Both the position numbers and the translations under genes were made by a program. 32,033 bases of DNA from Saccoglossus kowalevskii (Eukaryota > Hemichordata > Enteropneusta > Harrimaniidae), in assembly GCF_000003605.2 (NCBI RefSeq), contig NW_003134356.1, forward strand, positions 109,126 through 141,158, in the 5' to 3' direction. Below, one piece after another: positions 1 through 30,523 of the stretch (positions within the stretch are counted from its first letter, which is position 1; each line of letters starts with the position of its first letter). The notes under the pieces are model-generated. The model ran no database searches and was not told where the DNA came from. It saw nothing but the letters and a program-made list of their open reading frames with translations.

Positions 1-440
1 TGTGGACCTCTCTCAAATTTGTTCATTTCGTGATGATATCTTCAATTCTCTAATTTTGGTGAATATTTTTGTAATTTTTCGTAAAAAGTGATATTTTCGA
101 CTTCTTGTTGAAAACTGTAAGTCCGATTGCTTTGATATTACATATATAGGTACTACATGTGGACCTCTCTCAGATTTGTTTGTTTTGTGATGATATCTTC
201 AATTCTCTATTTATTTTGGTGAATATTTTTGTAATTTTTGGTAAAAAGTGATATTTTCGACTTCTTGTTAAAAACCGCAAGTCCAATTGCTTTGATATTA
301 CATATATAGGTACTACATGTGGACCTCTCTCAGAATTGTTCATTTTGTAATGATATCTTTAATTCTCTTTAAAACTGTAAGTCCGATTGCTTTGATACTA
401 TTCATATTGTTCATTTTCTAATGATGTCTTCAGTGCTTTA
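1..440. repeat. tandem repeat, about 157-160 bp unit
   Basis: Copies start at 1 (cut by the window edge or complete), 158 and 318, each opening TGTGGACCTCTCTCA and ending with a TTTGATATTACATATATAGG-type stretch. The third copy carries an internal deletion of about 70 bp and runs into a decayed fourth start near 405. The array probably continues to the left of the window. Confidence 0.85.
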
Positions 441-545
441 ATTGAAATGTACATTGCTAACAGCGGAGCTATCTCAGCCGATAGGCTGCTTGTTTATATT
501 TTCCATAACTGATTTAAAACGCCAATTTTGACTGATAACTAAACC

Positions 546-662
546 AAATTTGTTTACAATATCAAGTTCCTTTCATTCAATGAAAAGGCCCCCAACTAAA
601 TTTGTTTACAATATCAAGTTCCTTTCATTCAATGAAAAGGCCCCCAACTAAATTTGTTTACT
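546..662. repeat. 52-bp direct duplication
   Basis: Two identical 52-bp units (546-597, 598-649) and the first bases of a third. They include CCTTTCATTCAATGAAAAGG, which is itself a near-palindrome. The identity suggests a recent slippage event or an assembly duplication. Confidence 0.9.
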
Positions 663-2570
663 TATAATTTCCCACATCGTCATATTGGGTTTGGAGTTGA
701 GTTGAGTTACCTTGGACCCTTCATCTTACCCAACGCTGTGTTCATAATAGTTTTAATCAAATGGCAAGAACGGGAATTGTGCTTGATAACGGACGAGACG
801 CAGCAATGCTTTGTTACCTAGAGCACTGCCCAGGTATCGTCAGACAGTGTGCCACAAATCGTATGCGTGTACGTCAGTTAAATCTTATTGGTTATAGAAC
901 AATTACCGAAATCATCGGAATCTGATGATTTTGTATTTATTTTGAAATTACATTTTTATTATCTTTATTATATTTATTTTCCAGATGTTCTGAAAAGCTG
1001 CATTTGACCTTCCTTTTAGTATTTGTACACCGATGCATTAATGACGACTGACTGTGTCTACATCGAATGTTCACACGTGTAAAAGTTTAATGATAATCTT
1101 GTGAAATTGACCTCTGTGAAAATATGTCAGAAGCAGCATGGCCATGAGCCTCAGGTATTCAACGACTTTTCGATAATGTGAAGGCGTGCGTCACATTTCC
1201 ATGAAACCATGGCAACGTTATTCTGCAAAAAAAGAAGTTAGTAAGTAAATTCACCCGATTGAGGTTTAGGCTTTTCATAATCTCTGAATCTCCATACTTT
1301 ATCCTGTTGATATTTCTATTCTTTAATCCGTAGAATTTTGCGAAACCACCTACCTTGTTTTCAAATAAAGAACTATTCACATTCATCTGCAATGACATTT
1401 TGTTTTCACCTACAGTTCTTCTGCCTGTAGTTTTGTCATTAATTAAATTCGCAACTAATAACTGACTTCATACCAGGCTTTGAAAATGCGCATGCGTCGT
1501 ATTAAATAATTTCTACGTACTATTAATTCTAAATTCTTGCACGTATATGTAGTTCGTTATATCATAAATCTAAATATTATGTACTGCAAAACAGCCTTTT
1601 TAGTTTACAATGAAACCTTACTTGCATTGACCATTGATCATCGTTTATGAGCCAGTCGACACGACGACCCGAGTAGTACACAGGTAACATTTGATTACAC
1701 AAGCTTGAAAGAAAAGATTACGTCCAATAAAAGTCATGCGCTTCTGTGTCTCAACTGTGTATAAGGACGTCGTCCACATTGTAGTCGATATTGATTTGTT
1801 TTGTGATTGATCAGGAGTAAAAGTATTTGTTTTCACTGACGAACGACTACTCATTAATCAGAATTGTATATTTGGACGATATTGCTTACACCCGTCTATG
1901 TCATTGTGACTAACATGTTCCCACTCAGTGAGTTCGTCAACGAAAAATTGCGTCTTGTATTCTATGTGAATCTTTACAACATATGTACATTTCTTTGCAC
2001 TTCAAGTTGGTAGCTCTGTTGTCATGCCGACGCCCTTCCTATGTGTTTTACACACATATGTAAATATAGGGATTCTGGATTGCCAAACTTCAATTTGTTT
2101 GAAATTGTTTTATATTTGTCAATAAATATTGACTTTATCATCTGCGTGAATTATCCAGTTCTCTGATTGGCTGTTACTTAAATCTCGCGTTATACATTCG
2201 GCATTCTAACTGAATAGGGCAGCATGTAATAAACATTTGGTTCTTTCTCGTAATCTTACCCATCTATACCTTTGGGCGATATATGCATATGTGTCTAAAT
2301 ATAATTCTTCCTGTCCACTCAATCCCACGCATCCTTTTAGTTTTAATGGTAATGAACTGTTGACATCTTTGATGAAGTCCTTCCCTATCATTTACCTTGA
2401 AACAAGGCGTAATTGATAGGTTTCATCTAAAAGTCTATTAAAATCCCCCACCAAGTACTGACACTATTAAAACATTCAAATGACCTTCCAATTTATTTGT
2501 CTTTATAGCCCCAAGTGTCGAAAAATTATTATTTCATAAATGTTTGTCGTTCAGTTACGGCGCCGTTCGT
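663..2570. other. gene-free flank
   Basis: AT-rich, with only short open frames of random look and no splice-linked coding signal on either strand. I see no RNA gene here. Confidence 0.5.
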
Positions 2571-2623
2571 TCACCAAACAACGCATTTTGTGAGAGACTA
2601 CACATATCACTGTATGCACGAAG
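2571..2623. repeat. isolated copy of the 52-bp satellite unit
   Basis: It reads CACCAAACAACGC followed by TGTGAGAGACTACACATATC, closely matching the units of the array at 3071-3336 about 450 bp downstream. It lies alone, just upstream of a GC-rich MITE. Confidence 0.75.
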
Positions 2624-2706
2624 ATGTATTGGTACCAGAACATGAAATTTGTGAAGAAAATTTACTGAAGTAGACTTGGATTGCAAATACCTGATGGAGC
2701 TTGTTT

Positions 2707-2839
2707 TTAAAGCGCGGTGGTCGTCGCGCAGCGCGTGTTGGAATTTTATGTAAATAAACAATGTATTTCACACGCGTTGCATACGTCGCTACGAGTCCCA
2801 TATCGAACAGGACGCAGCACGACGACTGCCGCCCTTTAA
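2707..2839. mobile_element. MITE family 1, copy 1 (TTAA-ended, GC-rich)
   Basis: It begins TTAAAGCGCGGTGGTCGTCG and ends GCCGCCCTTTAA, with imperfect terminal inverted repeats of about 25-30 bp. A second copy lies at 22905-23028 and shares the core (AACGTATTTCACACGCGTTG-like and GAGTCCCATATCGAACAGGA). The GC-rich ends contrast sharply with the AT-rich surroundings. TTAA at both ends fits a TTAA-targeting transposase, but the parent element is not identified. Confidence 0.8.
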
Positions 2840-3070
2840 GGGACTAGGGATTGTGGCTTTGTGGAAGGAGACAGGAGCGGTAGTAACCGTGGACAATACT
2901 TAATAAGTAAAACTGTCAGTTGAATAAAGCAATGGATATAAAATACATGAAAAGGAAAAGTATAAAATATATTTGTCATAGTAAGAACTACAACGTCTTA
3001 GTAGATATTGAAATTTTATTACAGTCATTACCATACTTTGGTAATGAGAGCATCCATTAAACATATAGCT

Positions 3071-3336
3071 GCGTGCGACCCGCACCAAATAACGCGTGGT
3101 GTGAGAGACTAAACATACCACTGCGTGCGACCCACACTAAATAAGGCGTGATGTGAGTGACTACACATATCACTGTGCGGGACCCACACCAAATAACGCG
3201 TGATGTGAGAGACTACTCATATCACTGCGCGCGACCCACACCAAATAACGTGTGATGTGAGTGACTACACATACCACTGCGCGCGAGCCACACCAAATGA
3301 CGCGTGATGTGAGTGGCTACACATATCACTGCGCGC
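3071..3336. repeat. 52-bp tandem satellite, 5 units
   Basis: The GACCCACACCAAATAACGCG core recurs at exact 52-bp steps (the G of GACC or its equivalent at 3077, 3129, 3181, 3233, 3285). The units differ by a few substitutions and no length changes. The array is not a CRISPR: there are no unique spacers. Confidence 0.92.
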
Positions 3337-5133
3337 AAATCATACAAATACATTATTGTGTGTCTGTGTCATTTCCAGAGATGACAAACAGGCAATCAAG
3401 ATAATGGCCTTAGGTTTTATTGTTTAGCGTACCCCACTCCGAGTGTTACTGTGTACACTACTATCGACTGTTGTTGATTCATGTTCTAATTTCTATTTTT
3501 AAGTTAACAAAAAATATGCGCTACATATGATGTAATAAATTTTAAAATGTAATTTGGAATGAATTACAGTTATACGGAAAATAGTTTTGCCGTAGTTTTT
3601 AATGTTGAGAAATTATATATTATCATGTTAATTGTATGATAATGAGCATGCGTAAACCGATCGTGGGCGAGCGAGTGAAAAACCTTATGCACCATTTTGG
3701 TGCTGAAAACCAGTCAGGATAGTGGTGCAGAAATGCAGACAATCATATGGGAATACTTTACACAGTCTAACAATTGTCAGTGAATTATGTATCGCTTCTC
3801 CAAAAGATATGGGTTAACTGGTCAAACTTCTATATTGCCATACCCCTAAACATCGGCCATTTCGAGAAAGCATGTGTAATAATTTTAAATTTGAGAAGAC
3901 TGTAATTTAAAATCATTACAGACTACGCCTGTTTTAGAAATTCCAGCCTTCGTTTTTATAAGATTCTAAGTTTAGTAATAATACTCACTACCAACAACCA
4001 TTTAATGAACGTGTAGGAAATGTGCCCGGCCCATTTCGTCCAAATGCATATGCGATTTGAATCCAGAGGGCATGCGTGTTCCGATGAAATTAGTTAGCTC
4101 ATTATTTCCTTAGAATGTTTTTGTGTTACATCAGATTCATACATGCTTTATCAACATGGAAATACGTTCAATATAACCGCAAAATTTTAGCTACTAGTAT
4201 TAAACTACATGTATTATTAGAATTTAGAAAAGACATTACTCACTCTTGTATAATCCTTGTTTCAACCCAGCTGACTCCTTTGAATGGAAAGGCTAATAGG
4301 CTAGAAGCTAATTTATCGTTTGTATTAACTAACAACTATTAAAACATGTTTCTAACACTGAACTAAGGGTACTTTTGTAAACAAAGTTGTCTTGGTGGAA
4401 ATTATGGTCACAAAACATTCCCCAACTGGGGAATTTAATGCAAAGTAAAAAGAATACGAAATGCGAGGCTTTGGTACCTGAAATGTCATCTCCACTAGAC
4501 ATCTCCATTAGACAACCATGGATTAATTGGATATGGGACCCAACACTAGTGTTTTTTGCCTCTCCATGCTATGTCGCACAGGTTGCCCACACACCAGCTG
4601 GCTAGGGACCAGCAGGCCCAGATGGTTAGGACCTTTTGTCTTCTGCAACCTTTGAAAATGTTATTGATAGATTCACTTGACAAAGGCCAGTGAGTTGGCC
4701 AGAGCCTTGACCTGGTGTATTGCAGGTTGAGAACATCCGTCTCTGTGTGTAACTTGTACAAGGTTGCTGTTTAGAGTAAATCTTTTTGTGGATCAGATCC
4801 ACAGAAATAGTAAAAACATCTTCTACTGGGGGACTTAAAGGTCGCCTGTCATGGAACTCTCCCCATGCGTGTTCCTGAGGTCCGGTAATGTTGCTAGACA
4901 CTAATATAAGGTAGTTTGATTTTTGTGTTATATGTTATATGCATCAACAACATTTTATCTGTTGTGCTCGCTGTTCTAGCACCCAAATCAGGTCTACTCA
5001 AAAGGTAGCTTTACTTCCATGACACTCAGTTCTTCACTCAGAAAGGTAGTGGGCGCCACATGTAAAGTAGAATGTGCTCACTCCTTTTGAAACACCTGCC
5101 ACCCTTTCATGTTTACCATGGAGGTCCATATAT
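3337..5133. other. gene-free flank
   Basis: Nothing convincing in either strand. Short open frames at 4115-4905 overlap each other and show no known domain. Confidence 0.45.
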
Positions 5134-5637
5134 ATGTCTCTTACCGATTTGACATCCTGTGATGTACATGTTTTTGCTTTTGCATTGTTGGTTGCGACTT
5201 TCTTCGTAGGACTGTGCAGTAGTGTGCATTTTAGACAGTTCGTTTGTTTTGTGGATTATTTGCATTTAACTTTGTACTGTGGTGTATCTTCCAGTTCACA
5301 ACTAGAAATGGAACTATCCTCGACCACGACCACCCAATCCACAAGTATCCTAGGAACTCCCGCAAACATTGTCGGTTACTTGCCTGTACTTGTGAAGGCC
5401 TGTGTTCCATCCAAGCTACCTTTTGTTTGCCACCCTGAGACTTTCTGTTTCAGTTTTCAAATGCTTCTGCATTGGATGATAGCCTTGATTCCAGGTACAT
5501 TCCTAATATCGGCTGTCTTGGTATTATTTCTCAGTGTTGTATGCTGTCTTAAAAGTGCTGTTCCAAACGTAGTCGGCCATTTTCTGTCACAGTATACTAA
5601 GGGATATTGGTACTTGGAAACTGGTTGTCCTGGCTAG
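5134..5637 (+). CDS. doubtful ORF of 167 codons, not recognised
   Basis: The longest open frame in the 5' flank. Counted from the first true ATG (5134) it is 167 residues; the frame stays open upstream to 5074 without an ATG. It has two hydrophobic stretches that could span a membrane (roughly residues 11-29 and 108-139), many Leu/Val/Cys/Phe, and an STTTTQSTS low-complexity patch. No domain is recognised and no splice partner is evident. The minus strand of the same area has short broken coding-like pieces, so this may be the antisense shadow of a decayed element. Confidence 0.15.
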   Translation: MSLTDLTSCDVHVFAFALLVATFFVGLCSSVHFRQFVCFVDYLHLTLYCGVSSSSQLEMELSSTTTTQSTSILGTPANIVGYLPVLVKACVPSKLPFVCHPETFCFSFQMLLHWMIALIPGTFLISAVLVLFLSVVCCLKSAVPNVVGHFLSQYTKGYWYLETGCPG

Positions 5638-8316
5638 TTGGTGAACACTTTGTATGGCCGCCTTTAGGTCAACGTAAATAGCATATGATGCAGAAATCAT
5701 GCCAATCTCGTAAGATGGTGCCTTGAAAGTCGCTTGGACTGATTATCTGGGATGTGGTGCAGCTAAAAACCTCTTTTCATAAATAGTGATACTTCTGGGT
5801 TTATCAACAGTATTCTGGGTGTGACTCTTATGACTCTTATAAACGCAAGCAGAGAAGGTGCACAGGTGCAGGTACCACAATGTTGTTACATTCTAGCCCA
5901 GGAATAGAAAAATCTGTTTCACAACTGACAAAGCTTTTGCTCTATTCCGTCCCTGACACTTTTACAACTCTCAAGGGTTGTTCCGTCGCACGTCTCTGCC
6001 AAATTGAAAAACAACTTGTGAATCAATGAATTCCTTCTTCTTGTCGACAGTATCATTCCCAGCATTCTCATGTGTTTTTGGTTTTCCACTCCTAGCCATG
6101 CTGTATTGCGCTACATTTCAATCTCATCGATATTTATGCAATGGGACAACTCTGTTTAGTATGCAATGCCGCTCGGTGCCTCTTATTCAGTGTGTCTTGG
6201 GGTAAAAGCTTCGGTTTGAATGAACTATTTGTTCATCTGATGAAATTGCTTCAGAGACTTGTAAGCGTATCTGATAATTCAGACGCAGAATTCCCCTGTA
6301 CATGAAACGAATTGACGCGCTTAGTAGGATTGCTAGAACCGTGTTTCTTAGACTTGATGTTTTGTCATTTATTAATAGGTTTTATTATTTTTTTTCTCAG
6401 AGGAAGGGACTAGTTTTTGCAGATATCACATGTTTTTCTTTTCTGACTGTATGGTCAATGTTTCAGACACGTCAAATGGGTATCACCAATAGTTAATTCG
6501 ACCAGCCGACATTACAACACATTCTAAGAACAAAAAGCGGGTCATATTTCGATCAAGAACATATGAATTTCTGATCACTAATGATCGTTGCCAGGTTGCT
6601 ACACACAGAGAGTACCGGCCGTCATGTGTATTACAAACTTTCAGTTGCAACAATTCTCACAGAAAATGGTAATTCAACTAAAATAACTGACCATCAATGG
6701 TGGTGTAGAAGTTCCTGTTGTCTTGGAGGAGTAGCTTTCTTGTATAAAAAAAATTATAAAGACTTATTGAACAAACCAAAATTCTCTGAGTACTAATCCA
6801 AAGGAGGCTTTAGGATTAGACACTTCAAGTCTGCCAGTAAATGACAACAAATATTTTTATTTCCGAATTAAGTCCAAGATTTAAATATTTTAATATTAAT
6901 TAGTTGTAAGGTAAATATGACTGAAGTAAAACATAGTCTACTGTATTCCCGCGTACCATATATATATAAATGAATCTTCCTCGCGTACAACATATAGTCT
7001 GCTGCTTTCCCAATATATAGCCTGCTATGTATTTGGGGCAGCCTGGAAGGTAATACTATTACCTTTTCATCGGACATGTATGTAATGCAAATGACGCATG
7101 ACAGTAATGTAAATGCTCTATGCGGTGAATAATTTACACATTTTAATTACGTGCCATGTTTTTATACGGTTCATTTGCCTAGGATATAATGCATTGCCCT
7201 TGATGTTCCACTAGACCATGGTACGCTTTAATAAATCAACCATCACGATCAAAACATTAAGAGCGACTTTGAAAAACGTTTTCAATCACAGTGCTAATTT
7301 TGTTCAGTTTATAACAAATTGTGTTTGAACAGTATCTCAATATCCTAATATATTTTCCCTTCAATATAAACGCTAGCACCAGTGGTATGCCCATTCGAAA
7401 GAGACATTTTCGGGACAGATTCCACTACATAATATAACAATAAGGGCGACTGACTGTACCTCATGGAAGTATGTTAGTTATCTGTTCGCGTAACAATTAC
7501 AACAATATTCTCTTTCCGAGAGCGGCATACCCCTACCCATTCATATTATTGACTGTAATGAAATATTTTCAATATGGCAAATTTTACTTTGCAATTGTCC
7601 GCTCTAAAATTAGCAATATTTTCATTTCAACGTTAACAATAAAATAATGTATGATCTGTAATATTTTGAAATCATAATTTGTGATAAATTACAATTATAA
7701 AATATGAGAAATATGCCAATGCTTCCAACATTGATAAATAATATGTGTTCAGATATTCAAGAGATAGGCTTTGGGTTAGCATTAATAAATATGGCAGATT
7801 AGTTTATTAATAATACGATTCGAAATAAGAGATTTATTTACTCAAATCGGTAATATTGAGAGAAATCATACATTTATTTAATACGTGCAAAAAAAGTATA
7901 TGTTACGAATGCTCATTATTTAAAAATTGTAATTGAAATGAATGGATATAAGCATTCTTTTTTATTTGAATATTTAAAAGAACATAGTCCCGACCTTCTG
8001 AAAAACATCGTAAAAATCCATATTATCGCAAAGGCCAGTGATATTATATACTGGAAAATCTCAACCTAGAATGAACTCTGCGTGTGACGACGTGTGTTGA
8101 TAGTTTAATTGTGCTGTACTAAATATCCCTACGCATAATGTAAACATATATCCCGAAATACTGTGAACCATTTAAAACAGCTACATAGTATTAGCTCCAC
8201 TTTACATTAGAGATAATACAAAGCAGTTGACATCACTAGCTAGTTTTACAGTGCATGTTCTTCTCTGCAATATACGTTTACTGTAAGTAGCGCCCTCCAA
8301 TGTCGTATCGATTCCG
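5638..8316. other. gene-free flank upstream of the cyclase
   Basis: AT-rich and without a supported gene. On the minus strand a frame starting at 6099 reads MARSGKPK and stops after 42 codons at 5971; further broken pieces follow, perhaps a relic of a mobile element. Confidence 0.4.
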
Positions 8317-8324
8317 TGACGTCA
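8317..8324. promoter_or_regulatory. CRE octamer TGACGTCA, upstream of the cyclase start
   Basis: A perfect palindromic CREB/ATF site about 490 bp upstream of the proposed initiator ATG. It is one of nine exact copies in the window, so its presence alone does not prove function. Confidence 0.35.
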
Positions 8325-8370
8325 AAATGACGCATACGGGTTAAGGCAATGTCACTCAAATCGATATTGT

Positions 8371-8425
8371 GTTTGGTTGTGTAGTCGTTCGTTATTCATA
8401 GACGACTACAGATGAAAACATTATC
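8371..8425. repeat. short shared segment with inverted repeat
   Basis: It contains TGGTTGTGTAGTCGTTC and a perfect 9-bp inverted repeat TGTAGTCGT / ACGACTACA (8380-8388, 8402-8410). A related segment with TGGTTGTGTAGTAGTTC and GACGACTACA lies at about 23318-23390, and both follow a TGACGTCA site. Probably remnants of the same repeat family. Confidence 0.4.
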
Positions 8426-8811
8426 AACGCTACGAACAGTTTGCGTGTCACCAGCTCATGTCACTAATAAGTAAGGTGAATGGAACAGTAAACCCTGCTG
8501 TGTTAGCTAAGTCAACGCTCCTTGAAATTAGAATATGTTTAAGCATCTCAGCCAATCTTGACGAGGACCAAACGAAACGACAACATAATCCGATTGTGCT
8601 TGAAGCATATATAATGCAATCGGCAACACTCCGTGAAACATTAAGTTTACCGTATGTGGCCTGAGCAAATTGTCGTTTTATATTCCTATCTCGGTAGGAT
8701 GACTTTTACATAAGCAGTATATACACGGTATGACTTGTTCTCGCATTACCTAATCGCATCCGGTAATACTCAACGTTATCCTATTGAACAAGACGAAAAC
8801 CCGTCCTAAAC

Positions 8812-8814
8812 ATG
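8812..8814 (+). CDS. GUCY1B2: GUCY1B2-like exon 1: start codon only
   Basis: The ATG abuts a consensus donor, GTGAGT at 8815-8820. Exon 2 begins with TAT GGA after an acceptor AG, and H-NOX cyclases almost always begin Met-Tyr-Gly, so a preceding exon ending exactly in ATG is required. An in-frame TGA at 8785-8787 lies 24 nt upstream, so this would be the first in-frame ATG. Other ATG|GT sites upstream of exon 2 (for example near 6665 and 7219) have poorer donors. The 5' UTR boundary is not visible. The assignment rests on a three-base coding segment and is an inference. Confidence 0.6.
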
Positions 8815-11800
8815 GTGAGTAACTATCTCGGCAATGTTTTATTAACCTATGTTGTGTTTTGAAAGCCTTTTGGTGTTCGTGTATTGGGTCTGAATGTTCA
8901 GGACTTACCTGTTCAATCAGGTGTCGTTACTCCCTTAAAGTGTGCCTATACACTAAGCGGCATCGACTCATTCAATTCTCTCAGTCATGCGTGATGGCAA
9001 GCCTCATGTACTACATTATTGTATGCATTTCACACTCAGGCACGTAAATGAGAACGAGTTTCCCTGGTACATGATTTGCACAATAACAAAGCTGCCTATC
9101 AGTTAACATTTGAAATGACACGTGATATAATGGACAAACATTCAGGAAGGACTCATCACTTGTACTTGTTTAGATACTATGAATAAATTAAGACCTCTAA
9201 TTGGTTGTTCGTTGTTTACAATATGATGTAATGATTGATTATCTTGTACATTGCTTTGTGTTACATTAACCACAATTTGCGCACGTGTGGATTTACGTGT
9301 AACATTGTTGCTTGAGGGGTATATATTGTTGCGCGAGGAGTGTTTCGTTACATGAAATGCATTTTGTGGCACTAGAGGTATTGTGTTACTGAGGTGATAT
9401 TTCGTCAAATTAGGGATACTTCTTCACAAAGCGGGTACTTTGACACATGATGAGTGTTTTGAAAAACCCGTGAGTATATTAGGTTTTTTACATTTTGTTA
9501 CTGAGGAGATGTTTTTCATATTGGGGTATTGAAGGAATATTTTGTCACATTAAGGGTACTTTGTTACTGAGAGGATATTCTGACATATTAGAGATACTTT
9601 GTTACTCAGGAGATATTTTGAAACATTGGGGCACTTTGCTACTGGGGAATTTTTTGACATATTTGGGATACATTGTTACTGAGGGGATATTTTGACATAT
9701 TGGGGTACTTTGCTACTGGGGAATTATTTGACATATTTGGGATACATTGTTACTGAGGGGATATTTTGACATATTGGGGTACTTTGCTACTGGGGAATTA
9801 TTTGACATATTTGGGATACATTGTTACTGAGGGGATATTTTGACACATTGGGGTACTTTGCTACTGGGGAATATTTTGACATAATTGGGATACATTGTTA
9901 CTGCGGGGATATTTTGACACATCGCAGTACTTCGTAACTTGAGGAATACTTTTTTACTGAGTGATATATTGACATATTAAGGTACTTTTTTACTGAGGGA
10001 TATTTTGACATATTAAGGTACTTTTTTACTGAGGGATATTTTGACATATTAAGGTACTTTTTTACTGAGGGATATTTTGACGCAATAGGGTACACATTAG
10101 TGAGGGGATATTTTGACACAAATGAGAAATATTTTGTAGTATTAAAGAGATATGCCTATGATGTGCTAGTATTACCTGTTGAAACAACGAAGTAGGTGAT
10201 TACAACTCCTGGATTTTCGCGCTATAGCCGAGAAAAAAGGTACGAATTCATCAGTTGTGACAACGTCACTTTTAAAATCATACACTCGTAACGCCAATTG
10301 TAATCATTACACACACAAGTTTGAAAGAAGAGTTTGATTCATATTGTCGGCAAGGACACACAGTCAATACATTAGTGCTATTTTGACACACCCGGTATCT
10401 AACTACTTTATAATCTACTCTTATCGTGTATGAACATTGACATCACAGCAGCTGTTTCAGAGGACAAAGTAATACCAAACAACGGTGTTCTATCTAATCA
10501 TGCTGTCCGGTTTTCAAGAGTGAAAGTAACCCCCTAATTACGATGTAAATCAAATGTGGAAAAGTATTGTGGCAAAAATGCACTCTAAAATTGGATGGAA
10601 ACCGTACAAAAATAAACATGTCGACAAGAATGATGGCACTTATATTGTCGGTAAAGTCGTATAGAGAAACCGTAGATTGTCAGTGTAAGCATTAAGTGGG
10701 TCATTTATCTAACATGTGTTAATGGTCGGCATGCTGTCATAGTTCCCATCCAAGAGTGGTACAATCGTTGCTGTAACCACAGTGAGCTCTACTCATATGA
10801 TATACTATGCAATCAATTATGTCTAAAACACGTATTTTCAGTTTATGACTATATTTTAATAATTATCGATTATTGCTGCATGACAAGAACTAGGTTGAAC
10901 ACCAGGAATAGGATTTGATTAAAGCGGTGAGGTATATCACCATTCGTGTAAAACTCATTGTTTATTACACGTGCCTTAATGTAAGAATATGCAAATTCGG
11001 ACAGTGAAGTTTTTATTCAAATGAATAAGATTTTTTTTATTCGTGATGAAAACGAACCTGACCATTTACTTCATATAATTATCTTCTTTTCGACAAAATT
11101 CAATGAAAAGTGAGAATCAAATGAGCCGTTGTTATGTAAATACGGCAAGTGAATTCCGTGTGAACTAAATTCTCATATTCCACTTGAATGCTATCAACGC
11201 AACTCTTGATTGTGTCATAATTCATCTTTCCCATTTTGTTGTCGCGGAGTTTTAAAGAGTGGGAGTTATCATCTGCGCACGCGTCAGATGACCATAGCGT
11301 GTCATTGTTTATAAACAAGCGTCTACCCATGAGCCTTTACGTTTTTATTGTCACTTAAGACTTAATTTCCGCGCGTGCGCAGGTGACGACCCTCCCGCTT
11401 TAATGTGAGATGCGGCGACGCTATTGGCCAGAATGTTTGAATGACACACGTGGAACTACGTGAATAGGTGAGTAGGCCTCAGACGCAAAATGGCCGCAGA
11501 GATCTCATTGACAACGATGAAGTCACGTGACTTTTTTTACCAATCAAATACTGTTCTCTATTCTCTCCGTCACCGCATCCACAGTTCTTCTGATTCACGT
11601 ACCCATGATATAACAGTTGACGCGAGCGGGGGAGATTTAGACGGCCATTCTATTAAATGTAAGGTTTGTTCTGAATTGCCTTTATACAGTATGGACTTAT
11701 ACATGTGTGTATACGGACACTCGTCACCGAGAAATACGGAGAAGAGACTTGGGACAAAATAGTGTGAGTATAACATTTTATTAGACAACTGTCACCGTAA

Positions 11801-14800
11801 CGCCATAAGATACAGCGTGCCGTAATTTTGCAGTATCTTGCGGGGTATTTCCATCCTTCCATATTCGGAAATGCAAATTACAAATATGGAACGATTACGC
11901 ACGTAAGCGTCCTCTAATAATAAAAACAAACATGGCTGTCATCAGGGTTTGACCGGACTCCGCACGAAGAAGTTCGCTGATTCTGTTCTAAATGTTTTGG
12001 ATTTCGGCATTCCCATGATGTATTTCTGGAAGGAAACGATGTATAGTAATAATGTTAGTACGAGGATACTGCAAAGTATGCACTCAGACAGTACGCGGTC
12101 GCATCGACCTCCACTGCGCGTCGATCGATACCACCGCTGTTTTTGTGCATACTTTGAAGTATCCTCGTAATAACCTCATAGTAATAATACTAATATTGAT
12201 TTCCCCACTACAATCTTTTTTTCCATTCTCCCCATTCCATTCTCATTCTCTTCTTCTTGAAAATACGCTAAATAAATGCATATACCTTAGTACGTACCAT
12301 TTAAAGGGTACCAATGCTGCACTGAGCAAACATTGATAGTTTTGTGAGTCGTAAACAAGTTTCTCGAAATATTAGCATTTTTGCTGATTAAATTAATGTA
12401 CAATTCTGCAATATAAATCTCTGCATTTGCAATGTGCAAAGTAGTATTAACGTTCAGAGGAACAACCGTGATATTTAATGTCCGAAACTGTCGTCTGACT
12501 CAAATATATCTTGAAATAAATATAATTCACATATTAATTGTATCGCGTACTATAAACACGTTTTCTTCTATATTATCAATCGATACTGTTTTACTATAAA
12601 ATGCGTTCAGGTTCCAGTTATGGATAAACCGTCGACTGTGTGGATTATAAACATGTTTTCCCAGAAAAGATGAGTATTATAGTAATAAGCTCTTTTAATA
12701 CAGGAAACTAACCAAGTAAATCGACATTTTGTGGAACACGTATGACGTATGTTATATAAAATCGATCGTGTATTCTGATCTAGAAAATACGATATTAAAA
12801 AATAACATATTTGTACGAAATTTTAAAGAACGAATATAAGCCTTGTGAATATGAAATTTAGAGTATGTAGCATGTCAGATAGATAGCTTGCATTTTGTTG
12901 AACGGATCACCTCTGTCATGTGAGACAGGTAGCACAGATTCTTTTCAGATTAGCTGTATAGTTACAATCAGGTTTAGGGTCAAATGTACCATCCGAAAAC
13001 GCGAAAATGTAAACAAATATATGACCACGTCAAATGAGGTATATTGTCGAAGACGACACAAGGTTGGTTATTTTTTCTGTCTGTGTTTCAGTATACACTC
13101 CAGTGTTTTTTAAGAGTGCTTTCGTATATCCTTACGTATTTTCGTTTATTTGTGTATGTCATCGAGCGCTTTCGCTTGCAGTAGTCATGGCGTATGAAAC
13201 GTTTATTGAACTCAATTGTATTATTTCGAGTGGAACAGTTACTCGCGTCATCTGAAGTGGAGTGGCAAGTAGCGTGACGTCATTTATAGGGCAGCGCCAT
13301 TTAACATTTCAGTTTGATAAGAAATTAACTGATGAATTACAGTAGAAAATATTGAGAATGTATACACTGTTGTGCGTCTTTAAGAATAAACTATCCCACT
13401 CTGTATACTTATAGTACACTAAGTTTACTAGTATTCCATTCGAAATATCTTAGTGACGATTTTTACAGGTTTACTTTAGTTTTTACTGAATTATAAAGAA
13501 ATATAATGATTTCAACTAACCTTTCTTCTCCAGTGAATATGATATATTAACATATGACGTCACATTGTCGTCCATCTTTTATTGCACGAACAATGTGTAA
13601 TTTAAAGTTATTACGACAATTTTGGTGAATTGGTAATTTTTACAATCAATTACATGTTCAATAGCGGTGTACTAGCACCACAGGTTATCAACCCCGAGTC
13701 AAGTCTCCACACAGATAACTGATTATAAACGACTCGGAAATAAGAAAATTCAATCACAGCTTCAGCTTTGATAACAAAAACCTCATACACGGCTTAGATA
13801 TGCACGATGCAATTATTCGCCTTGATTTCTTGATTACATTTCTCCTATAATCTCCGAAGAACATATGTAAAGGGATGAACCATTATATATGCGGGGTGGG
13901 TATATTTTTTTGGTCTAACAACATTATTTCGTCGATTTCCTCTCCTGCCAGATTTTCAAACCTTGTTAGTGCAGATTAATAGCAATAATTGAGTCGTGTA
14001 TTGTTGCATATATGTAACACACATTGAGGTAATAATGACACGCTCCTAAATCCAAAATATTCAATTCTCCGTGACATAAGTCTGAAAGACTCAATGTGAT
14101 TATTTTTTATGACGTAGGATTGGGTACTCTAACATGCACAGACGATTTAAATAACATTTGATTCAGAACATTCTGAAATTCCGGTTCTTATTGCCCTACA
14201 GTGGTAAATTTACGAGCGGTCGCCGTAGATTTCTATCAATTGAAATCACAATGGTCTTGAAACATGTACAAGCTCATGTCGACCACAGACATTAAACATA
14301 TGTATTTTTAAGGTCTATGTGTCAAGTACCTCAAAAGCTGGCCGATAAGATGATACATTGCCTGTATACCGGGCAGGGACAGCACTAAACGATTCGTCAG
14401 TACAGCGGGTGGCAAGTTATATGCCCAAACAGTTTCAATGAATTCCAAACCACCTCATCATTAAGTCATTTGAGGTGGATCGTCTTTAAACTGAGTCTCA
14501 CGCAATATATAACTTGAAAAGTGTCTTGCGCGACCGTAATGCGTTATGGTGGTATGTCGAGTGTGCTTGCCGATCGATAGGCTTACTCTCCGTCAGCCAG
14601 ATCTAGAAACGACACATGTCCTGTTACAAGAAGATTGGAGATACGTGTGAAATGGCAGGTTTATACATCCAACAGAGAGCTATGTTGGACATGGATACAA
14701 ATATGTTAATTTATTACTTATAAAAGTTCCATCTAAATCACTATAACGCCACACATGTAAATGATCCGTATACTATATATGCACTATATCTTAGTGTTTA

Positions 14801-17800
14801 TTCCCAACTAATCTGTCAACATTAATTGTCGCGTACTGATCGCAACAATGATGATCTGTAATTACGTTCACATCGACAAGCAACCATCAAGTTAATTAAG
14901 CCGTCAAGTTAGTAAGCGTGAAAAGAAGTATAAGACACATCATCAAAAGCCACGGGTCATATATACCAACATGCCTAAAAACGCGACCAATATTCAAGAT
15001 ATTCTCCGAATACCTCACTCTACACATACAGTGGAAATAATTACGTGAAAATATAAACGTACATGTTAATATTATTTTCGAAATCACTTTTTTAATGATG
15101 CATGGGAAATGTTTATTTTAAATACTGTAAAATATTTTATTTCCGCTTGAAATTTATTTTCCCTATTTTTGCTGAAGGTGTGATTCAGTGAACATAAAAT
15201 CCAGTGAATATACTCTTTTCCCCATATTTCACATTCAACTCATCAAAGTCAGTGAAAATACATTCCAGCTAAAATAAAGTATTTTACAGTATACAATGAG
15301 AACTCGTAAAACAAGACTGTTGTCAACTGCTTTAAATCCAGGCTAAATAAACAGTGGGATTAACATACATACATGCGTAATTCGTACACTGATCTGTTTA
15401 TTTCAAGTCAATATAATTTCAATGCAAATGAGATGATCAGACAGATATTCATTATTGGCATCGTATTACATCAGTACGTGTATAGCACACGTGGTAGGAG
15501 GTGAATGACATGCTTCAAAACGCATTTTTGTATCTCTCGAATTTTTTTTTATTTATTTTCACTTTGCGTGTAAAATATGTTAATTAATCATGGCCATTAA
15601 AACAATAAACAAGTATTATGGGATAAGTTGAAATTTATGGCGCAATCATGTATGGTACCACCTGTACGTCGTTATTCAAGCCAAACAGAGCCTCTACACA
15701 AAACTGTTGATTACGTAACTTCAAAATACTACGTTGTACGTCACTATAAGTAGCTCAGAGTATGGCAGTCAATTAGGAAAGATGGCATTGTTTAACGTTG
15801 GCGTTTTACAGCAAAGTATGGAATGGATGGCGCTACAGATGGTAAATAAAGCAGACCAGTTTGTACACTGACGAAAATGGGCCATGACAACTAGGGAAAT
15901 ATATACAGATTGAGTGATTGACACTACAGGTGTTGCTACTATGATTATGACTAAAGTAAAATATGCTATGCAACAGAATATGGAATAGATGACAGATTGC
16001 GTGGCTGATGGTATAAACAAAGTGAATCAGATTGTACAACAAATTATTGAATGGATGGCACTACACATGTGGGATTGGTCACGGTTACTAAAAAAGAGTA
16101 ACCGTGGATTGGTGAAATGGCATGACAACTGTGAGACTGGTGTCAATGACGTTAGTGGAATAGGTTTTACAGTATTAAACGAAGGCACCACAGACGTGGG
16201 GCTGGTGGTAACGGAAGCACTTGCAAGTAAACTGTTATAGTTAAACCAATTATACTTTATGGTGTGGATGTTTGGGGTGGGTTCTTGACAAATGCTTTTA
16301 AAGGATCAAGAACTAACAAGTCTGAGATTGATGATGACAATTTCATTTCAAAATTATTCTCAGACAAATTGGTAACTGAAAAAGTTCATGTTAAGTTCTG
16401 CAAAAGAGTACTTAGGGTTCATAAGAAGGCATCAAATAATGCCTGTAGAGGGGAGTTGGGACGGTACCCAGTTATGGTAGAAATTTGTACGACAGTCATG
16501 AAATCATATCAAAGAATGTCATGTAAAAACAAACAATGCAATCATTAATGCAGCATTCAATGAAAGCAGTGCTTACACCCATGACCAATGGTTTACCTTT
16601 GTACAAAAGCTGTTGAGAATTACTCAAATGGATAATGTAGATATCAGTCAAGCAAATTTCTGTGACTTGTTCAAAGAGAAGATGAAGCTTATTTACATTA
16701 AATATTGGGGAATTGATTTACAGAAAATTGGCCATAATAAGTTAAGCACTTACAACACATTTAAAAGTAATTATAAGTTAGATAACTATTTGGATGAAAT
16801 TAAAAACAAGAAACATAGAATAGCTTTAACTAAATACCGTATTTCAGCACACTTTCTACCTATTGAGACAGGCCGTTACCAGGGTACTGATAGAGATAAT
16901 AGAGTATGTAATTTATGTAACAACGACGACTTGGGGAATTAAATACATTATATGATGCATAATGATATTAATGGGCACAGGGATAAATTTCTTAAATCAT
17001 TGTATATTTATGCACCCAATCTACAAAATTTATGTAAGAATGATTTGTTTTCTCTAGTAATGATAAATTTATCTATACTAACTTAGCTAATTTTGTTTTT
17101 CAGATTATGAAATTATTTTAGTTTAGTTATTTAGTTAGTTGTTTTGTATTGTTATTTCTTTTTGTTTTGTTTTTTGGACTTTACTCAAGCTCTGTATTGT
17201 GTACGTTCCAAATACAATATCTTGTATCTTGTATGCTATAAACAAGTGTATGTTAGACAGTTAAAGCGCCATAAAACGGACGATCGCCGCCACTGATAAC
17301 ACCCAGTGTGTGTAATGTCATGCTTTACAAAAACGTAATTGATTGATATGAACTGAACGAACCGTCCCAGTTGGGAGATACGTGACACTGGTAACACGTT
17401 GTCAATCCTGTTCAATTACTGCTAAACACACAACTGTGACCCAATGGATCAGTAGTCATAGCATATATTAGGATGGAAAACATAACAATGTAGTTCACAT
17501 ACACCGACAGGTATGAGAAAATCATGACACGTAAATAAACAGTATTTTTTAATTATTTTTAAAGAAACTAACCAGTTGCCTAATATGTAGCTAAAAATGT
17601 AATTGCATGAATGGAGAGGCAAAAATGAGGGTGAAGTTATTTAATTATGAAAAAGTAAAGTATGTATTTGCAAAGTATGCAAATATGGATATCTGCGATG
17701 TGACTATAGATTACTTAACTTATAACAATGCGATTAGTATGCAAATATGGATACATATTACATATCTATTAACAATGTGCTACAATTAGTGTAGATCGAT

Positions 17801-20800: not shown

Positions 20801-23800
20801 CTGCTCACGATATGACGGAATACGATAACTATATTTTCTGTACATTTTCGATGTATTGCATTTTTTCACTATGAATGTGGTAATACATGTTTTATTGATT
20901 ATTACAAACCGCCTATGTCATGTCAGAAGGTCGTCGCATCAGTCGCTATCTACAAGATGAGACTTGAATGGGATCTTGACATAATGTCACCATACAGTAC
21001 TACGGCCGTTGCAAACCCCAAGTAATGTACCTCTGTTATTATACATATTATACTTTCATGGGAATGTCGAAATTCAAAAAGTTCATTCAATATTTGAAAT
21101 TCGCATTTCCTTATATGGTAGGATGAAAATACCCCGTAAAATTAACCGCAGAATTACGGCACGCTATTACTTGTGGCGTTACGGTGACAAATGTATAACT
21201 TTACAAACACTATTAACATGGATAACGTGATATCGTATAAGCTTGTTCGTGCAATGAGATTTATTCCCGATTTTCTTGTAATCGCACTAGAGTTTTTTGT
21301 GTACTGTAATTGAGTTTTATAAATGATCAGTTTACAAATCAGTATTTTGCAGACAAGAACACAGTACGTAAAATTTTAACTATCCCGCCTTCACTGCCAG
21401 TCAGTGTAACATTTTGCGGCCAATCAATTCACGTACATAACTTAACTATAAAGTAAAAACCTGCACGTTAGATGGAAACATAGTGGATTTCAATCATGTA
21501 CAATGATTATCTGGGCGATATAATCTTAATCATTGATGTATAGACGGCGTCTCAGTATATGTGAGATGAATATCATGGCCACGAGTTCGGCACAGTGTGA
21601 CATGTTATACTTCATCAGTGATATGACCAGATTTGTCATGTTTCTATTTTAGATAAACGTATTTCATTTCTAGATTACGAAGTTCACTCCACAGATTGTT
21701 GTTCCTGCTAGCTAGCGGTGTCAGTGAAATTCGTCGAATTATTGAACACTTCCGCGTTTTTTAAATGATGATTATGGCAATAAGTAGACAGGGTGGAGGT
21801 AACCTGAAGTAGATTTGCGAGGTCTGCCGATCGAACTCGTAACAACCGAGATGATTTGTCGTAAACTATGATGTCGATTTTGCAACACATTGTATTCAGT
21901 TCATGATCAACTGCTGATATCCAGAATCGACAATAATCAATATTTTGTATCGCAAAACACATCCTCTATTCACCCTGTCGAGTGTTCTGGTTTTAGGAAT
22001 ACATACACGAGTACGTTCCATTTGACTCTTCTGACATGTACATTTCGATACATGGACATGGACATTAGCAAACCAGTAAAAGACGTAACAAATAACTGTC
22101 CGTCGGTGAAAGTTTCCCAATTTCGTCGTCACGTGCAGTTTTCAGGTGGAGGACCTCATCCCACTCCCCCGGGAATTTAGTTAAAAAACTGTGAAAAATT
22201 TCGTTTTTACATAGTTGTATACAAAATTATCAGAATCAGCTTGTCTTGTTTGAAGCTACGCAGAAAGAAAATCATCGGTATTTATAAATCTGACATCTGA
22301 ATACAACATTATTGAGAGCAATACACAATATGTATGTATCGAGTAAAAAAATGATGTCTGAATAACGACGACATAAGAATAGAGCAATACAATCGTACGG
22401 ATTAACCAGCGCTTTAGCAGTTACGCAGTGTATCAAAACAAAGCTTTGGATTATCTATCGTATTTATGTCGGCGTTGTTTCACAGAAATTCTAGTTATTG
22501 ATCGACGATAATGTGTTTTCTTTTTGTGGTTTGTTTTCTCAGAGCCAAGGCGGACATTGATGACATCGCGTTTTTGACGCACCAAAATTACAAAGACACT
22601 GTGTCATTTAGAATACTGCAAGCCGTTTCGATAATTTTAGGTAAGTGTCGCATTTGTCATAGAGACAACGGGTATTGATATATCAAATAACAGAACAGCA
22701 AGCCGAGCAGCAATATTATAAATTTTATTAGAACACAAGCATATCCTGCGGAAGAAATACTTGAATATTTATCAAGGTTTGCTTTGATATTTGAATTTAG
22801 AAAAGATAGACATCGGGATATACGTTTTCTGTTAAAGCCATCATGCGTTAAAACCGAGGGATTTGTATCTTACACAAGACTTATTTAAGTGATGTTTTAG
22901 TTGATTAAAGCGCGGTGGTCGTCGCGCAGCGCGTGTTCGAAAATAAACAATGTATTTTACACGCGTTGTATACGTCGCTATGAGTCCCATATCGAACAGG
23001 ACGCGGCGCGACGAGCACCGCCCTTTAAGATGTTTTTGTTTTAATCTGTGTTAAAGTGGTGTCATTGACGTCACTTGAATTAGTATATTGATAGCGCTTT
23101 TAAACTTTGCGCACAATTTATACCGATGGACTTTGTATTTCCTTCAGTGCTCACATCTCCTATGCACAACTTTCATATAATTCGCGCCTTCTAGTGACAA
23201 AACGTAATCACGTGACGTCATGAGTTTGATGAAAGATATGTCGTTCAGTATATTGTGTTATTTCTGTGCGTTACTTCCTGTGTTAACATCAACTAAGAGA
23301 TGTTGTTCACTACCTCATCTGGTTGTGTAGTAGTTCATCATTTATCATATCTCTCAATAACCGACGGACGACTACAAATAAACTCAATAATGACGATGTG
23401 AACGGCCTTCCGTTCAACCATTTACGTCACAGAATCACCTTGTTGCTAGGAGGTGCAACTTACTTCACTGCATAATGGATGAGTTGTAACACAATTCTGT
23501 CCCTTTGAGAAATCATCGATCGTAGGATAAGATCTCGCTTTTCATCAATATACAATGTTTTCAAGCAATATCAGATTTACTAGCTGTGGTCTGACGTCTA
23601 ATCGATTTAGTTCGAGTTTATTCTTCGACCGCATTTTAAAACTTATTGAAATCTCCCAACACCCATAATAATACTGACCAGGTATAGATAGTATGTTGTC
23701 TATGTCACTATTTTTTATGTGTTTCATATGCATTTTTTCTAAACTTTCGATCAATGAGTGAATTATTGTAGTCGTGTTTTATGTTGTTAATATTCGATTT

Positions 23801-26800
23801 GTTCTTTATGAATGTACATATTTGAATTTAGATCACAAATCACCTCACATCATTTTTAATATATATCATATTGTCATAATAAATAAAAGGGAACTATTTC
23901 GACTTTTTTTATTTAACATTACAACGATAAAAGCTGGAACACTATTATTGTATTTTTATCATTTGATTTTATATCTTGTTTATCGAACCGACCCACCCGA
24001 ACACGTTGTTGTCGCTAACGTATTCATTGGTCCATTTCTCATATTTGAGGAATTCTTCACTGAATTCTTTCCTATGGGAAATAAGTATACTTTCATGAAT
24101 ACATCTTATTCACATTTTTTCGTAACGTTTCTTGCCAGGTCTCGATATTCCCGTAGTTCTAGAGATGCTTGGCGAGTTCTTCGTAATTTACGTTCTACGT
24201 CTAGGCTATGAAAAGCTTCTCTCTGTACTCGGGAACGATTTGAAGTCGTTCTTGGAAAGTTTGGACTTTCTTCACTTCGTACACTTGAAATCGACATTCA
24301 CAGAGATGAGTGCGCCCTCATTTCGGTGTAGTGAGTTAGATGATGGAAGTCTACTGTTGCATTATTATTCAAACAGGAAAGGTCTGGAGCCCATCGTTGT
24401 CGGTAAGCACTACTTATCATTTTCTATCAATCTAGCGTTTTATTTGCTCATCGTAAACTACTTTTTACGACGACGATAATCATTCCTTTTCTCAAGTGGA
24501 TATAATGCATGCACTGCTCAATTTACAGCGAACAACGTCTATAAATAATACTTGTGTGTGTCTAGAAATCTGTAATACCTTACCATTGTGTTTAATAATC
24601 GATACATTATATACATTCAACAATAACCTGAGTAATTTTCAGTTGTGTATTTGACCAAAGACACTTTCTAGTGTCTTTGATTTGACATACACATTGGAAT
24701 ATGACTATATAGTACACAGACGTGGTGAATTATGCAAATGCGCAAGCGTTTTGATTTAATGGTACGTACAATAAAATGTAGGTCGTTATTTCATAAACAA
24801 TATATTGCGACTTAAACATTGATTAATATAAATAATAACCCAGTGTGTAAGTATACAGGGACGAGTGTAAGATTTCTGGTTACTAGGGGCGTAACTGTGT
24901 GATGACGTCAATACTCCATTACATTGCAGGATACTGTAACAAAGAAACAAGTCATGACATGCATAAATTCTCTTTTATCGACGTGAAACATCGACATAAA
25001 AACTATGTTTTAGTGATAATGTGCAAATTAATTTCATTCGCTTTTATATTGAATATAGGGATTGTTAAATCAATAGCCAAGAAATTCTTCGATATAGAAG
25101 TAACGGTGGTTGTATACTCTGAGCAGGAAACGCCCCCACTCGGCAGGGAAACTCACACAACATTCATTATACGTTCTGTTGGTGATTTTGCTATCAGTAC
25201 CAAGCGTAAGACGGTGAGTATAATTGTATATATAATTGTAAAGTTTATTGCGTTCTATATACTGAATGAATATGAGAATTGCATCAAATTAATTATAGAA
25301 TTGTCAGTTTATGAGTTCGCGATATACAATTTCTGTGGATTATAACTTTTATATTTTTTTATTGGAAAAAATGCCAGAGTTGTGTTCTGTTTCTCAGTTG
25401 GTATTTTCATCGCGATGGAGCAAATGCAGTGAACAAGAGCGCGTGACCACGTGTTAATGAGTCGCTGAGCATAATTTAGTAGGTCATTGAACTCATAGCT
25501 CTTGCGCGCACTATCATGACGAAAATTTTGGATGAAGTGGTTAGACATGTTCTGGTCAGTGAACATGGGGTTTTGGCATAGCGTTATTGTTTGTTTTGTT
25601 ATTGGGTTGCACAAAATAAAGTTAATAATATTGTGTTAGTATTAATAATTACAATGTAATTTAAGTTTTATATTGTATATTTTACTCCCCACAGAAAACG
25701 ATTGCAAGCCCTGTGAGAAAGTTTGTCGTAGGGGGCGATATACCTCGTCCGTTTTCCACATGGGATCTACGTAACTTTTTCCAGGCTCCAGATAGGCTGT
25801 GGATGGACGAGGAATCCTTCTGCAGAGCCTTTCCTTTTCACTTTGTATTCGACGAATCTCTCGTGTTCAAACAATGCGGTGTCATGATCCAACGAGTTTG
25901 TCAGAATTTGACCTTGAACGAAAATACAGTCAGTGACTTTTTAGAGATAATGCACCCAAACATACCTATGACGTCACAGGACATCAGACAATTCATCAAC
26001 ATAGAGTTTGTAATGGCGATAAAAAAGGAGCGAGTTAAGGAATACTACACCGACAAGTCACGCCTAATACTCAGAGGTACGTGACACTCATTTGCATTTC
26101 AATACAGGTATTACACCACCACTAGACTATTTGCGGGGTCTGGGACGCTTCATTTGTCAGATTACGTCATCAACTCACAGCCTCGTTCGCGTTTATACTA
26201 GGGATAACCCAGTTACTGTTTTAGTAGAGGTTTGTGGCCCAAACGTCTAAACCCAGACCCCATCATAGACAATTCGAAGGTAAAATGTAATCATCATTTC
26301 AGCAAGGTGGGTCGTGGAGCAGATGACATAATACTGATAATACGCTATTTCTGTTTGGATTCCAGGTCAGATGATGTGGATGGAAGACCTACTTTGTCTT
26401 GTTTTTCTATGTACACCGTTTGTTCATACATTGGAAGAAATGAAACAATGCGGTTTACATTTCGCAGATCTCGCTGTGCATGACCTAACGCGAGATCTAG
26501 TTCTAGCCAATCAACAGGTTAGTTTATTGTATGGAAATAACTTGTACTCTTCCATCATTTCATTTCAAATACTAGTAATATTAGTACTGCTTTCAATATA
26601 TGATTCGTTTCATTATTCGGGAGCAACTTTTGTTTTTAAGAGGCTGCTTGAATTACAACTTGCCAAACAACTAGAACAGAAAGAAGAAGAATTACGTCTC
26701 ACGCTGAAACAACTTGAGGAAGAAAAAAAGAAAACCGATATGCTGCTGTATTCAATGATGCCTAGACAGGCAGCTGAACAACTGCGTGAAGGCAAGAAAG

Positions 26801-29800
26801 TAGACGCAGGTGAGGAACACTTCGAAACTGTATTTAACCTGTAATTCAAACCTCATACGTTGACCCAACTCTGCAGCTTCAGTCAAGGTGCAACATCTAC
26901 AGTTAAGGGGTTCACTGATGACAAAGTTGGACAAGAATGGGATTCGAAGTGACATTATAAACAATAGTAACAATGCTAATACAGATTTCAATAACGTGTT
27001 ACGGCAAAAACATGCATTAGAATGATTATTTCAATATCACGTGGTGTGCATTGAATTATTCAAGGCAACTGACAGGCAATAGACGTTTAATGTGTCGCTG
27101 TACATTAATGGCTTGCTTAATCTTCCGTTTTTGTCGTGGTATTATAATTCTGTAGTTGCAATGCATTACAAGGTTGCTGACCACAACTGTGGCGTCGACG
27201 ATCAGAAATACGCTCTAACTCGTGCGATTACTAAACAATTCTGCTTACATCTTGTTTACATAATAATTGTGGTCAAACTAAAACAAACCAATTTGAAATT
27301 TGATTTTTTTGCATCAATGTTAGATTGGTACGTGACATGTATTAAATGATTTGGTTGGTGAATTTGTTTTATTCCCAGCAATTGACATGTCTTTGTAGAA
27401 GCCAGTTGTCAGAACAAACGCACAAAAGGCACGTGTACCTTCAGTAGATTGCATAATAATTGACCGTTAGAGAGCGATATAAACTTATTTTATTAGTATT
27501 CCCACCTTTTATTTTCTGAAGGATATTTCGACAAAGTAACGGTGCTGTTTTCAGATATTGTGAAGTTCACGAACATCTGCTCCCACTGCAAGCCAATTGA
27601 GGTCATACACCTCCTAAATGACATGTATTCACGATTTGACAGGCTCACCAGTGTGTACGAGGTTTACAAGGTCAGTATCGGGTCACATAATTCCGCTTAT
27701 TTTTGAGTTTCATCATTGAGTTGGGTTGTTGCTCTCAGAGGTTACGTAAACAATTGTATGTATTCGTCAAGCAGTCTACATCTCCATACCTAAGCGCTGG
27801 ATTCCCATTTCGTGTCTAGTCGTTGTTGCCGCTTCCAGTATATGATTTGTATTTGCTATCTCTTTTCCTTCACCAACGTGTTATTGCGCATCGACACGCA
27901 TTATTACTTTGTCGGCTCCTGCATTGCCACAAAATTACACAATGCTTCATTGCATTATTGAATGACTAAACTTTAATAATGCTTGTCATAGCAAAACTCG
28001 AATGCGTCACAATCATGGCGTCTGAGTGGCATCGTGGTATACATACCGGGCCTCGAAGTGTCCAAAGAGTAAAACAAATACCAGTGGACCAAGGTACGAC
28101 AGAGTCAAGAAATGAAAGATGGGGAAATTATTTTGGTAATCGTATTCATAAAATCCTCATTACATTCAATTTACTATCAGGTTGAGACGATTGGAGACGC
28201 CTATATGGTGGTTGGGGGCTTACATGTATCGAAGTCAGCTCACGCCCAGGGAGTTGCCAATTTTGCACTCGGGATAATCAAAGCGTCCATTCAAGTAAAA
28301 TCGCCCGCTGATGGGAATTCTATCAAAGTGAGTTTTCATTTTATATCATTATTTCGAAAACACATCCCAAATATTCCAGATGAGCAGAAACGGAATTTAA
28401 TTTTGTAAACTTTGTATACTTTATGTAATTTTATTATGGTGAGTATAGATCGGAATTACGCAATTTATTCCAGCAAACCATTAATAGTATACATTTTACG
28501 TGAGCTAGATTATACATAGAAGTCGATTTGTAAATAACAACTATATTACTTAATTTGAAATTTGCAACATCTTTCACGTAGATTCGCGTAGGAATCCATT
28601 CAGGACCCGTTGTCACAGGAGTCGTTGGCGAGAAAGTCCCTAGGTATTCCTTATTTGGCGATACAGTCAATGTAGCCTCCAGGATGGAAAGTCATGGCGT
28701 GCCAGGGAGAATACATATCAGTCACGAAACAAAACTGTGAGTACAAACGTATCAAGATTGCGACAAGGATAAAGCAATATAGTGAAAAATGATTCGGACA
28801 TTCTATAAAAGCCTGCTACTATAACAACCTATACATCTTTTGAAAGCTTAGATATAGAGGATTACGGTAGTACATATGCCGTACCAGTGATAGTCTAGGA
28901 GATTACCTGGAGGCCAATTATGCTATTAACAGTGTTTCCTAGCAACATGCAATTATTATGACCATGTATATTTTACTTCGCTAACAGAAAATGCAATAAT
29001 AATCAAAATAGCACAATTTAACCCAAAATTACGAAAATTACTATATAATATATTATGTATTACTATCTCTGTTATTGGAACAACTCGGGGGATAATTATC
29101 TTCCTGCTGGGCCAATCAAAAATTATATTATCTCCCTTATTGTTGGGACCACTCAGGGATAATATTATTGTATTTTTTTTACTATTCTGACTATTGAAAA
29201 CACTGTTTTTTAACACTTCCAATCTCACAAATAACCTGCGAATTGCACAAGTAGGCAAGCACGTAGCATGTCTGTAAAATAATATTGATATCCAAATAAT
29301 GCCCTAAATACAAACCATTTTAGCAACACATTCTAACCCCATCGACGACAGAAGTTACATGTCTGGGCACCTATTATAATAACTATTTTATTTTCGTTTA
29401 GTTTTTCCATTGATACTCGTATAATTTTGAGCTGTTGATTTCAGATGTCTGGAAGGCGGTGATTACGTAATCGAAATTCGAGGTGAAATTGAAGTTAAAG
29501 GAAAAGGTAGAATGGTGACCTACTTCTTAAATAGTAATAAAGTTGACGCTGAACCACCTACAGGTGAGACTGGTTGGTATATTGCTGAAAATGGACAATT
29601 TTGTTTTCAATAATTATTTTTTGAAATTACTGTAAAACATGTCTTTTTCGCGAGCATGTCTTTTTAGCGAGAGAACTGATTCGCTAATTAAAGATGTCGC
29701 TAATGACTTTATTATAAATTCAAAATGGCCAAGGCTTGGGGATTTGTATACAGTAATTTGAATCATAAAATTACACAGTTTTTCTTATTTAATTTTATGG

Positions 29801-30523
29801 AGGTAATAACTGCGCATTTGTTTTGGCGCGCGACAGACAAGTATCGTGAAAACAGGAAATCAACAATGACAAGAGAGATTCGCTAAACCAACATTTCGCT
29901 ACTACGTCATTTTACCACATTTCGCTAAAATTGCATGTCGCTTTTTCAACATGTTTTACAGTAGATCACCCATAATTGTTGATTTAGACTTAGTCTAAAT
30001 CAACAATTCAAAACACGGGATCGTCGTTCTGTTATAGCTATAGGTATTACAAACAAACTTGATAAAAAAGAGTACGACAAATAATACAAACAGTTCACGC
30101 AGTAAGACTTGAATCAAGTTTCATATACATGTGAGATGACACAAGACGCGTGATTGGTTGGCAATCAACAAGACGCGTGACTGGTTGGCAATCCACAAGA
30201 CGTGATTGATTGGCAAACAGCAAAACGCGTGATTGGTTGGCAATCCACAAGACGCGTGATTGATTGGCAAACAGCAAGACGCGTGATTGGTTGGCAATCC
30301 ACAAAACGCGTGATTGGTTGACAACCAGCAAGACGCGTGATTGGTTGGCAAACAGCAAGACACGTGATTGATTTGCAATCAGCAAAACGCTTAATAGAAA
30401 ACACTTGACCTGCTTTGACCCAGTAGCTTCAACCAATCATTTGGAAGTTGCGTGTTTTGTGTGACTTCATTTATTCGTCGATTTCGCATGGAATTGGTTT
30501 ATATTATTGCAGTTTTGTATTTT

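Follow-up and report, generated by a model that had tools for sequence, protein, structure and literature searches.

A coding exon that carries the start codon and nothing more of the protein is an ordinary layout, known from several human genes. In the variants reported as TRPM7 c.3+1G>C (PMC11295107), DPM2 c.4-1G>C (PMC10154465) and RPS26 c.4-1G>A (PMC11660570), the names imply that c.3 and c.4 meet at a splice junction, and from the rule by which such variants are named we infer that the first coding exon of each of these three genes ends with ATG. The N-terminus of the H-NOX heme domain has been described from the structural side, as Y2 of the human and bacterial domains forms hydrogen bonds, in the simulations presented in PMC6225106, with carboxylates that mimic the heme propionates, which suggests that this N-terminus is structurally fixed. 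In the literature consulted on GUCY1B1 and GUCY1B2 gene structure, no stated first-intron position was found for any soluble guanylate cyclase beta gene. Herein we analyze a stretch of 32,033 nucleotides of Saccoglossus kowalevskii DNA (the window), and we propose that a cyclase gene within it has its start codon on a separate exon. As the human variant names imply that this kind of layout is already known, the cyclase would be a further instance of it.

Gene model and identity of the product

Open frames were read by eye, exon ends were placed by hand and the exons were joined by script, and the resulting gene model on the + strand (8812-31485) has 13 exons, 12 introns that are all GT-AG, and a continuous frame of 765 residues. 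The Pfam domains HNOB (residues 2-163, 1.8e-48), HNOBA (235-424, 2.2e-48) and Guanylate_cyc (432-612, 2.9e-69) occur in this order and all score far over the Pfam cut-offs, as is expected of a soluble guanylate cyclase. The heme histidine falls in the H105 column and YYSNR aligns with the Y-S-R motif (Alr2278 numbering), as in beta subunits, and the H-NOX domain begins Met1-Tyr2-Gly3 without an extension, with Met1 supplied by the proposed exon 1. Judged by its sequence, the gene is one for a beta subunit of soluble guanylate cyclase, the heme-containing, nitric-oxide-sensor type. The model protein ends in CNIL, which resembles an isoprenylation signal of the CaaX type and which we take to be a mark of the beta-2 subtype, and the subunit is thus probably a beta-2, an assignment that relies on this C-terminal trait.

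All exons lie on the + strand. Downstream of exon 2, the H-NOX domain continues through exon 3 (22543-22640, 98 nt) and exon 4 (24139-24402, 264 nt), the latter encoding the heme His as well as YxSxR and being backed by a Pfam HNOB match of the surrounding open frame (5.8e-25) and by PDB matches. Exon 4 also encodes one additional residue in the loop past the heme His, where the alignments give LHFVHL versus LHDHL in beta-1. Exon 5 (25059-25213, 155 nt) is followed by the HNOBA exons 6 (25695-26076, 382 nt) and 7 (26366-26517, 152 nt), by exon 8 (26641-26809, 169 nt) with the helical linker preceding the cyclase domain, and by exons 9 (27522-27670, 149 nt), 10 (28181-28327, 147 nt), 11 (28582-28736, 155 nt) and 12 (29445-29563, 119 nt), which encode the cyclase domain to its end, while exon 13 (31055-31485, 431 nt including the stop) encodes the C-terminal tail.

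The introns and flanks contain a variety of repeats. Intron 1 harbors tandem arrays at 9530-9922 and 9947-10118, with units of 36-37 and 74 bp, which are CpG-poor (observed/expected about 0.2-0.3 around 9401-10000). In intron 2, which is 10.8 kb long, the frames of 15989-16942 resemble, as read by eye, the end of a LINE-type element, and three frames scanned there gave no Pfam family over the cut-off. The last intron has a 27/54-bp tandem array (30140-30390) and a perfect 22-copy trinucleotide run (30525-30590). Tandem arrays are also present 5' of the gene, at 1-368, 542-661 and 3061-3336, with units of 160, 52 and 52 bp, and the region 4501-6000 has raised GC (0.43-0.44), low CpG (observed/expected 0.25-0.53) and a 188-codon open frame (5071-5634). 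Six frames in 4629-6202, this one included, matched no Pfam family, and our guess is that the region is possibly a mobile element. An upstream neighbor gene that would bound exon 1 was not found among the 9 frames scanned of the 32 with at least 60 codons in 1-8800, none of which reached a Pfam cut-off; the minus-strand frame 6871-7146 has one Pfam match, under the cut-off.

Exon 2 and the origin of the initiator codon

Exon 2 (11690-11763, + strand, 74 nt) encodes 24 residues plus 2 nt, and its letters align with H-NOX proteins from residue 2. It opens with TAT GGA directly after tttatacag, as had been claimed, and is followed by GTGAGT at 11764; its end in phase 2 matches exon 3. The acceptor, which the earlier note called good, turned out to be average, since by a simple score it ranks 6th among the 12 of the gene model and 40th among the 542 AG sites in 1-12000. 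Between the upstream stop TGA at 11672-11674 and Tyr2 there is no ATG in the frame of exon 2. An extension of exon 2 upstream without an intron was thus ruled out, as the frame IAFIQ-YG runs into that TGA, and so was an ATG at 11691, which lies within exon 2 and is outside the cyclase frame. The sole Pfam match of the 96-codon frame that contains the latter ATG (11472-11759) is GlnD_UR_UTase, which is below the cut-off (14.7 versus 21 bits).

That family members start Met-Tyr-Gly is borne out by comparisons with solved H-NOX structures and by the Pfam family. The H-NOX query aligns residue 1 to residue 1 with 17 of the 20 structure sequences listed, although the query was typed with Met1, so that the Met column is partly given, and many of the 17 are Alr2278 variants and not independent. 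Two of the other listed sequences align residue 2 to residue 2, and one, an alpha-1 chain, aligns only internally. Position 1 of Pfam HNOB corresponds to residue 2 (Tyr2) of the model protein, an independent sign that the protein starts directly before Tyr-Gly. At the cyanobacterial loci examined (270 candidates, of which 226 were confirmed and 80 kept), the codon preceding Tyr-Gly is ATG in 80 of 80, and in 50 of the 80 the stretch from the preceding stop to this ATG is free of any other ATG, GTG or TTG. The set is biased towards this result, since the pattern used to find all 80 itself begins with MYG. As the frame of exon 2 contains no ATG ahead of Tyr2, and both the solved H-NOX relatives and Pfam HNOB put the start immediately before Tyr-Gly, the initiator must come from an upstream exon.

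The ATG at 8812 and competing first exons

The ATG at 8812-8814 on the + strand has an A at -3 and is abutted on its 3' side by a perfect GTGAGT donor (8815-8820), and an in-frame TGA (8785-8787) lies 24 nt upstream of it on the same strand, so that the earlier note was accurate in letters and coordinates throughout. The stop itself is uninformative, however, because among the 251 ATGs of the stretch upstream, 106 are preceded by an in-frame stop within 9 codons, and it was dropped as support. A TATA-like site at 8718 was likewise set aside, as TATAWA occurs 75 times on the + strand.

We consider it quite likely, in a weighing that is one of judgement and was not computed, that the ATG at 8812 is the start codon, placed as a lone codon at the end of exon 1 and spliced to exon 2. 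Exon 1 would be 5' UTR with the initiator ATG as its final three bases, and ordinary cis-splicing would remove a phase-0 GT-AG intron 1 of 2875 bp (8815-11689, + strand, GTGAGT...tttatacag) to connect it to exon 2, in which codon 2 is Tyr. The mature mRNA would then read ATG-TAT-GGA, and Met-Tyr-Gly would head the H-NOX heme domain. Donor, acceptor and frame all fit the claim that the start codon is alone on its exon, 2.9 kb from codon 2, and it is from sequence that we infer that 8814 is spliced to 11690 in RNA and that there is no other first exon.

The strength of the donor exceeds chance expectation in part. With a simple score, the weights of which are approximate consensus frequencies, the ATG at 8812 ranks top at 6.09 among the 10 ATG|GT sites in 1-11650, the runners-up being at 2.70 (7218), 1.41, 1.12 and 0.97, and only 3 of the 757 GT sites in 1-11660, including that at 8812 itself, score at least as high. 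In 500 dinucleotide-preserving shuffles of 1-11660, an ATG|donor with a score of 6.0 or higher arose one or more times in 6.0%, one that also has a purine at -3 in 3.6%, and a plain ATG|GTRAGT in 11.2%. For shuffles of 8000-11660 alone the corresponding values are 2.8, 1.0 and 4.4%.

These frequencies bear directly on the reading in which 8812 is a chance match and the real ATG-ending first exon is elsewhere, either in the window or upstream of it. The 6.0% of shuffles with a comparable site speak for that reading, as does the next best candidate, the ATG at 7218 (donor gtacgc), because its 2.70 falls within the range of the other 11 donors of the gene model (2.44-8.61) and is above two of them (exon 2, 2.44, and exon 11, 2.56), so that the score alone is compatible with 7218. 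The length of intron 2, 10.8 kb, means that a long intron 1 would be unremarkable in this gene, and it also makes a first exon past the left edge of the window conceivable. Nevertheless, 8812 is far ahead of every other ATG|GT in 1-11650 and has the A at -3, and we regard a first exon elsewhere as unlikely. An upstream exon might instead add a longer N-terminus rather than a lone Met. Nothing positive points to this, other than that an in-frame upstream exon of a different size could have escaped notice, and it is opposed by the residue 1 to residue 1 alignments of 17 among the 20 PDB sequences listed, many being variants of a single protein, and of two more from residue 2, by Tyr2 as position 1 of HNOB, and by the bonding of Y2 to propionate-like groups reported in PMC6225106, which together make it highly improbable.

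Two further readings concern how the 5' end of the transcript would arise. Exon 2 opens with codon 2 right after an AG acceptor, as would be expected if it were a trans-splice acceptor that obtains its start codon from a spliced leader ending in AUG. Such leaders supply start codons in some flatworms, but with a cis donor and its preceding ATG present at 8812 a leader is unnecessary here, and the chance of this arrangement seems to us minute. A second promoter just 5' of exon 2, from which transcripts would start within intron 1, is compatible with a start codon at 8812, and it is suggested by the composition of 11001-11800, where 400-base steps have a GC content of 0.38-0.45 and a CpG observed/expected ratio of 1.15-1.48 versus 0.26-1.03 for 8801-11000. 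Part of this region, 11313-11403, is one copy of a dispersed repeat of which the other is at 30869-30970 (76% alike over 103 columns). That a repeat lies here counts against the promoter, as do the facts that a CpG ratio of at least 1.15 is found in 23 of the 64 bins of the window and that the first in-frame ATG of its transcript would be that of residue 68, and we hold such a promoter to be very improbable. The related proposal in the earlier note, of a 5' UTR exon that acts as a separate regulatory unit and could be exchanged through alternative promoters, found no support in the window.

Annotation and comparison with known genes

A one-codon coding segment could plausibly lead to a mis-annotated N-terminus. 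The next in-frame Met after the start is residue 68, and hence a gene predictor that misses exon 1 could lose 67 residues of the H-NOX domain. An automatic model of this kind, lacking Tyr2 among the residues lost, could falsely suggest that the heme domain is broken. N-terminal errors in gene prediction are among the subjects covered in PMC7656754, and in plants, according to PMC8831610, annotation frequently overlooks very short exons. The plant microexons described in the latter are internal and 1-15 nt long, whereas the exon proposed here is terminal and is short in its coding part alone.

On a broader evolutionary reading, the intron right after the ATG would be ancient and common to animal soluble guanylate cyclase genes of the beta type, with exchangeable tissue-specific first exons, and truncated N-termini of beta-2 entries in the databases would be traceable to this layout. 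We find this rather doubtful. On this reading, with exon 2 opening the protein frame at codon 2, the gene could be driven from any first exon with ATG at its end, and tissue-specific first exons could be exchanged with the protein unchanged.

The known genes with a junction between codons 1 and 2 compare with the present locus in layout only, as TRPM7, DPM2 and RPS26, in the reports cited above, represent protein families unrelated to the cyclase, and their junctions are based on annotated transcripts, whereas that in the window is predicted from the sequence. The closest likenesses in the protein itself are with the two beta subtypes. Rat beta-2 (GUCY1B2) is similar at the N-terminus and carries a C-terminus of the isoprenylation type, to which the CNIL of the window protein would correspond. 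Among solved structures, the H-NOX and HNOBA parts of the model are matched best by beta-1 chains of GUCY1B1 (6jt0_B and 6pas_B), presumably from human and Manduca. GUCY1B1 and the window protein share the Met-Tyr-Gly start, the heme His and YxSxR, and what sets the latter apart is its C-terminal tail ending in CNIL.
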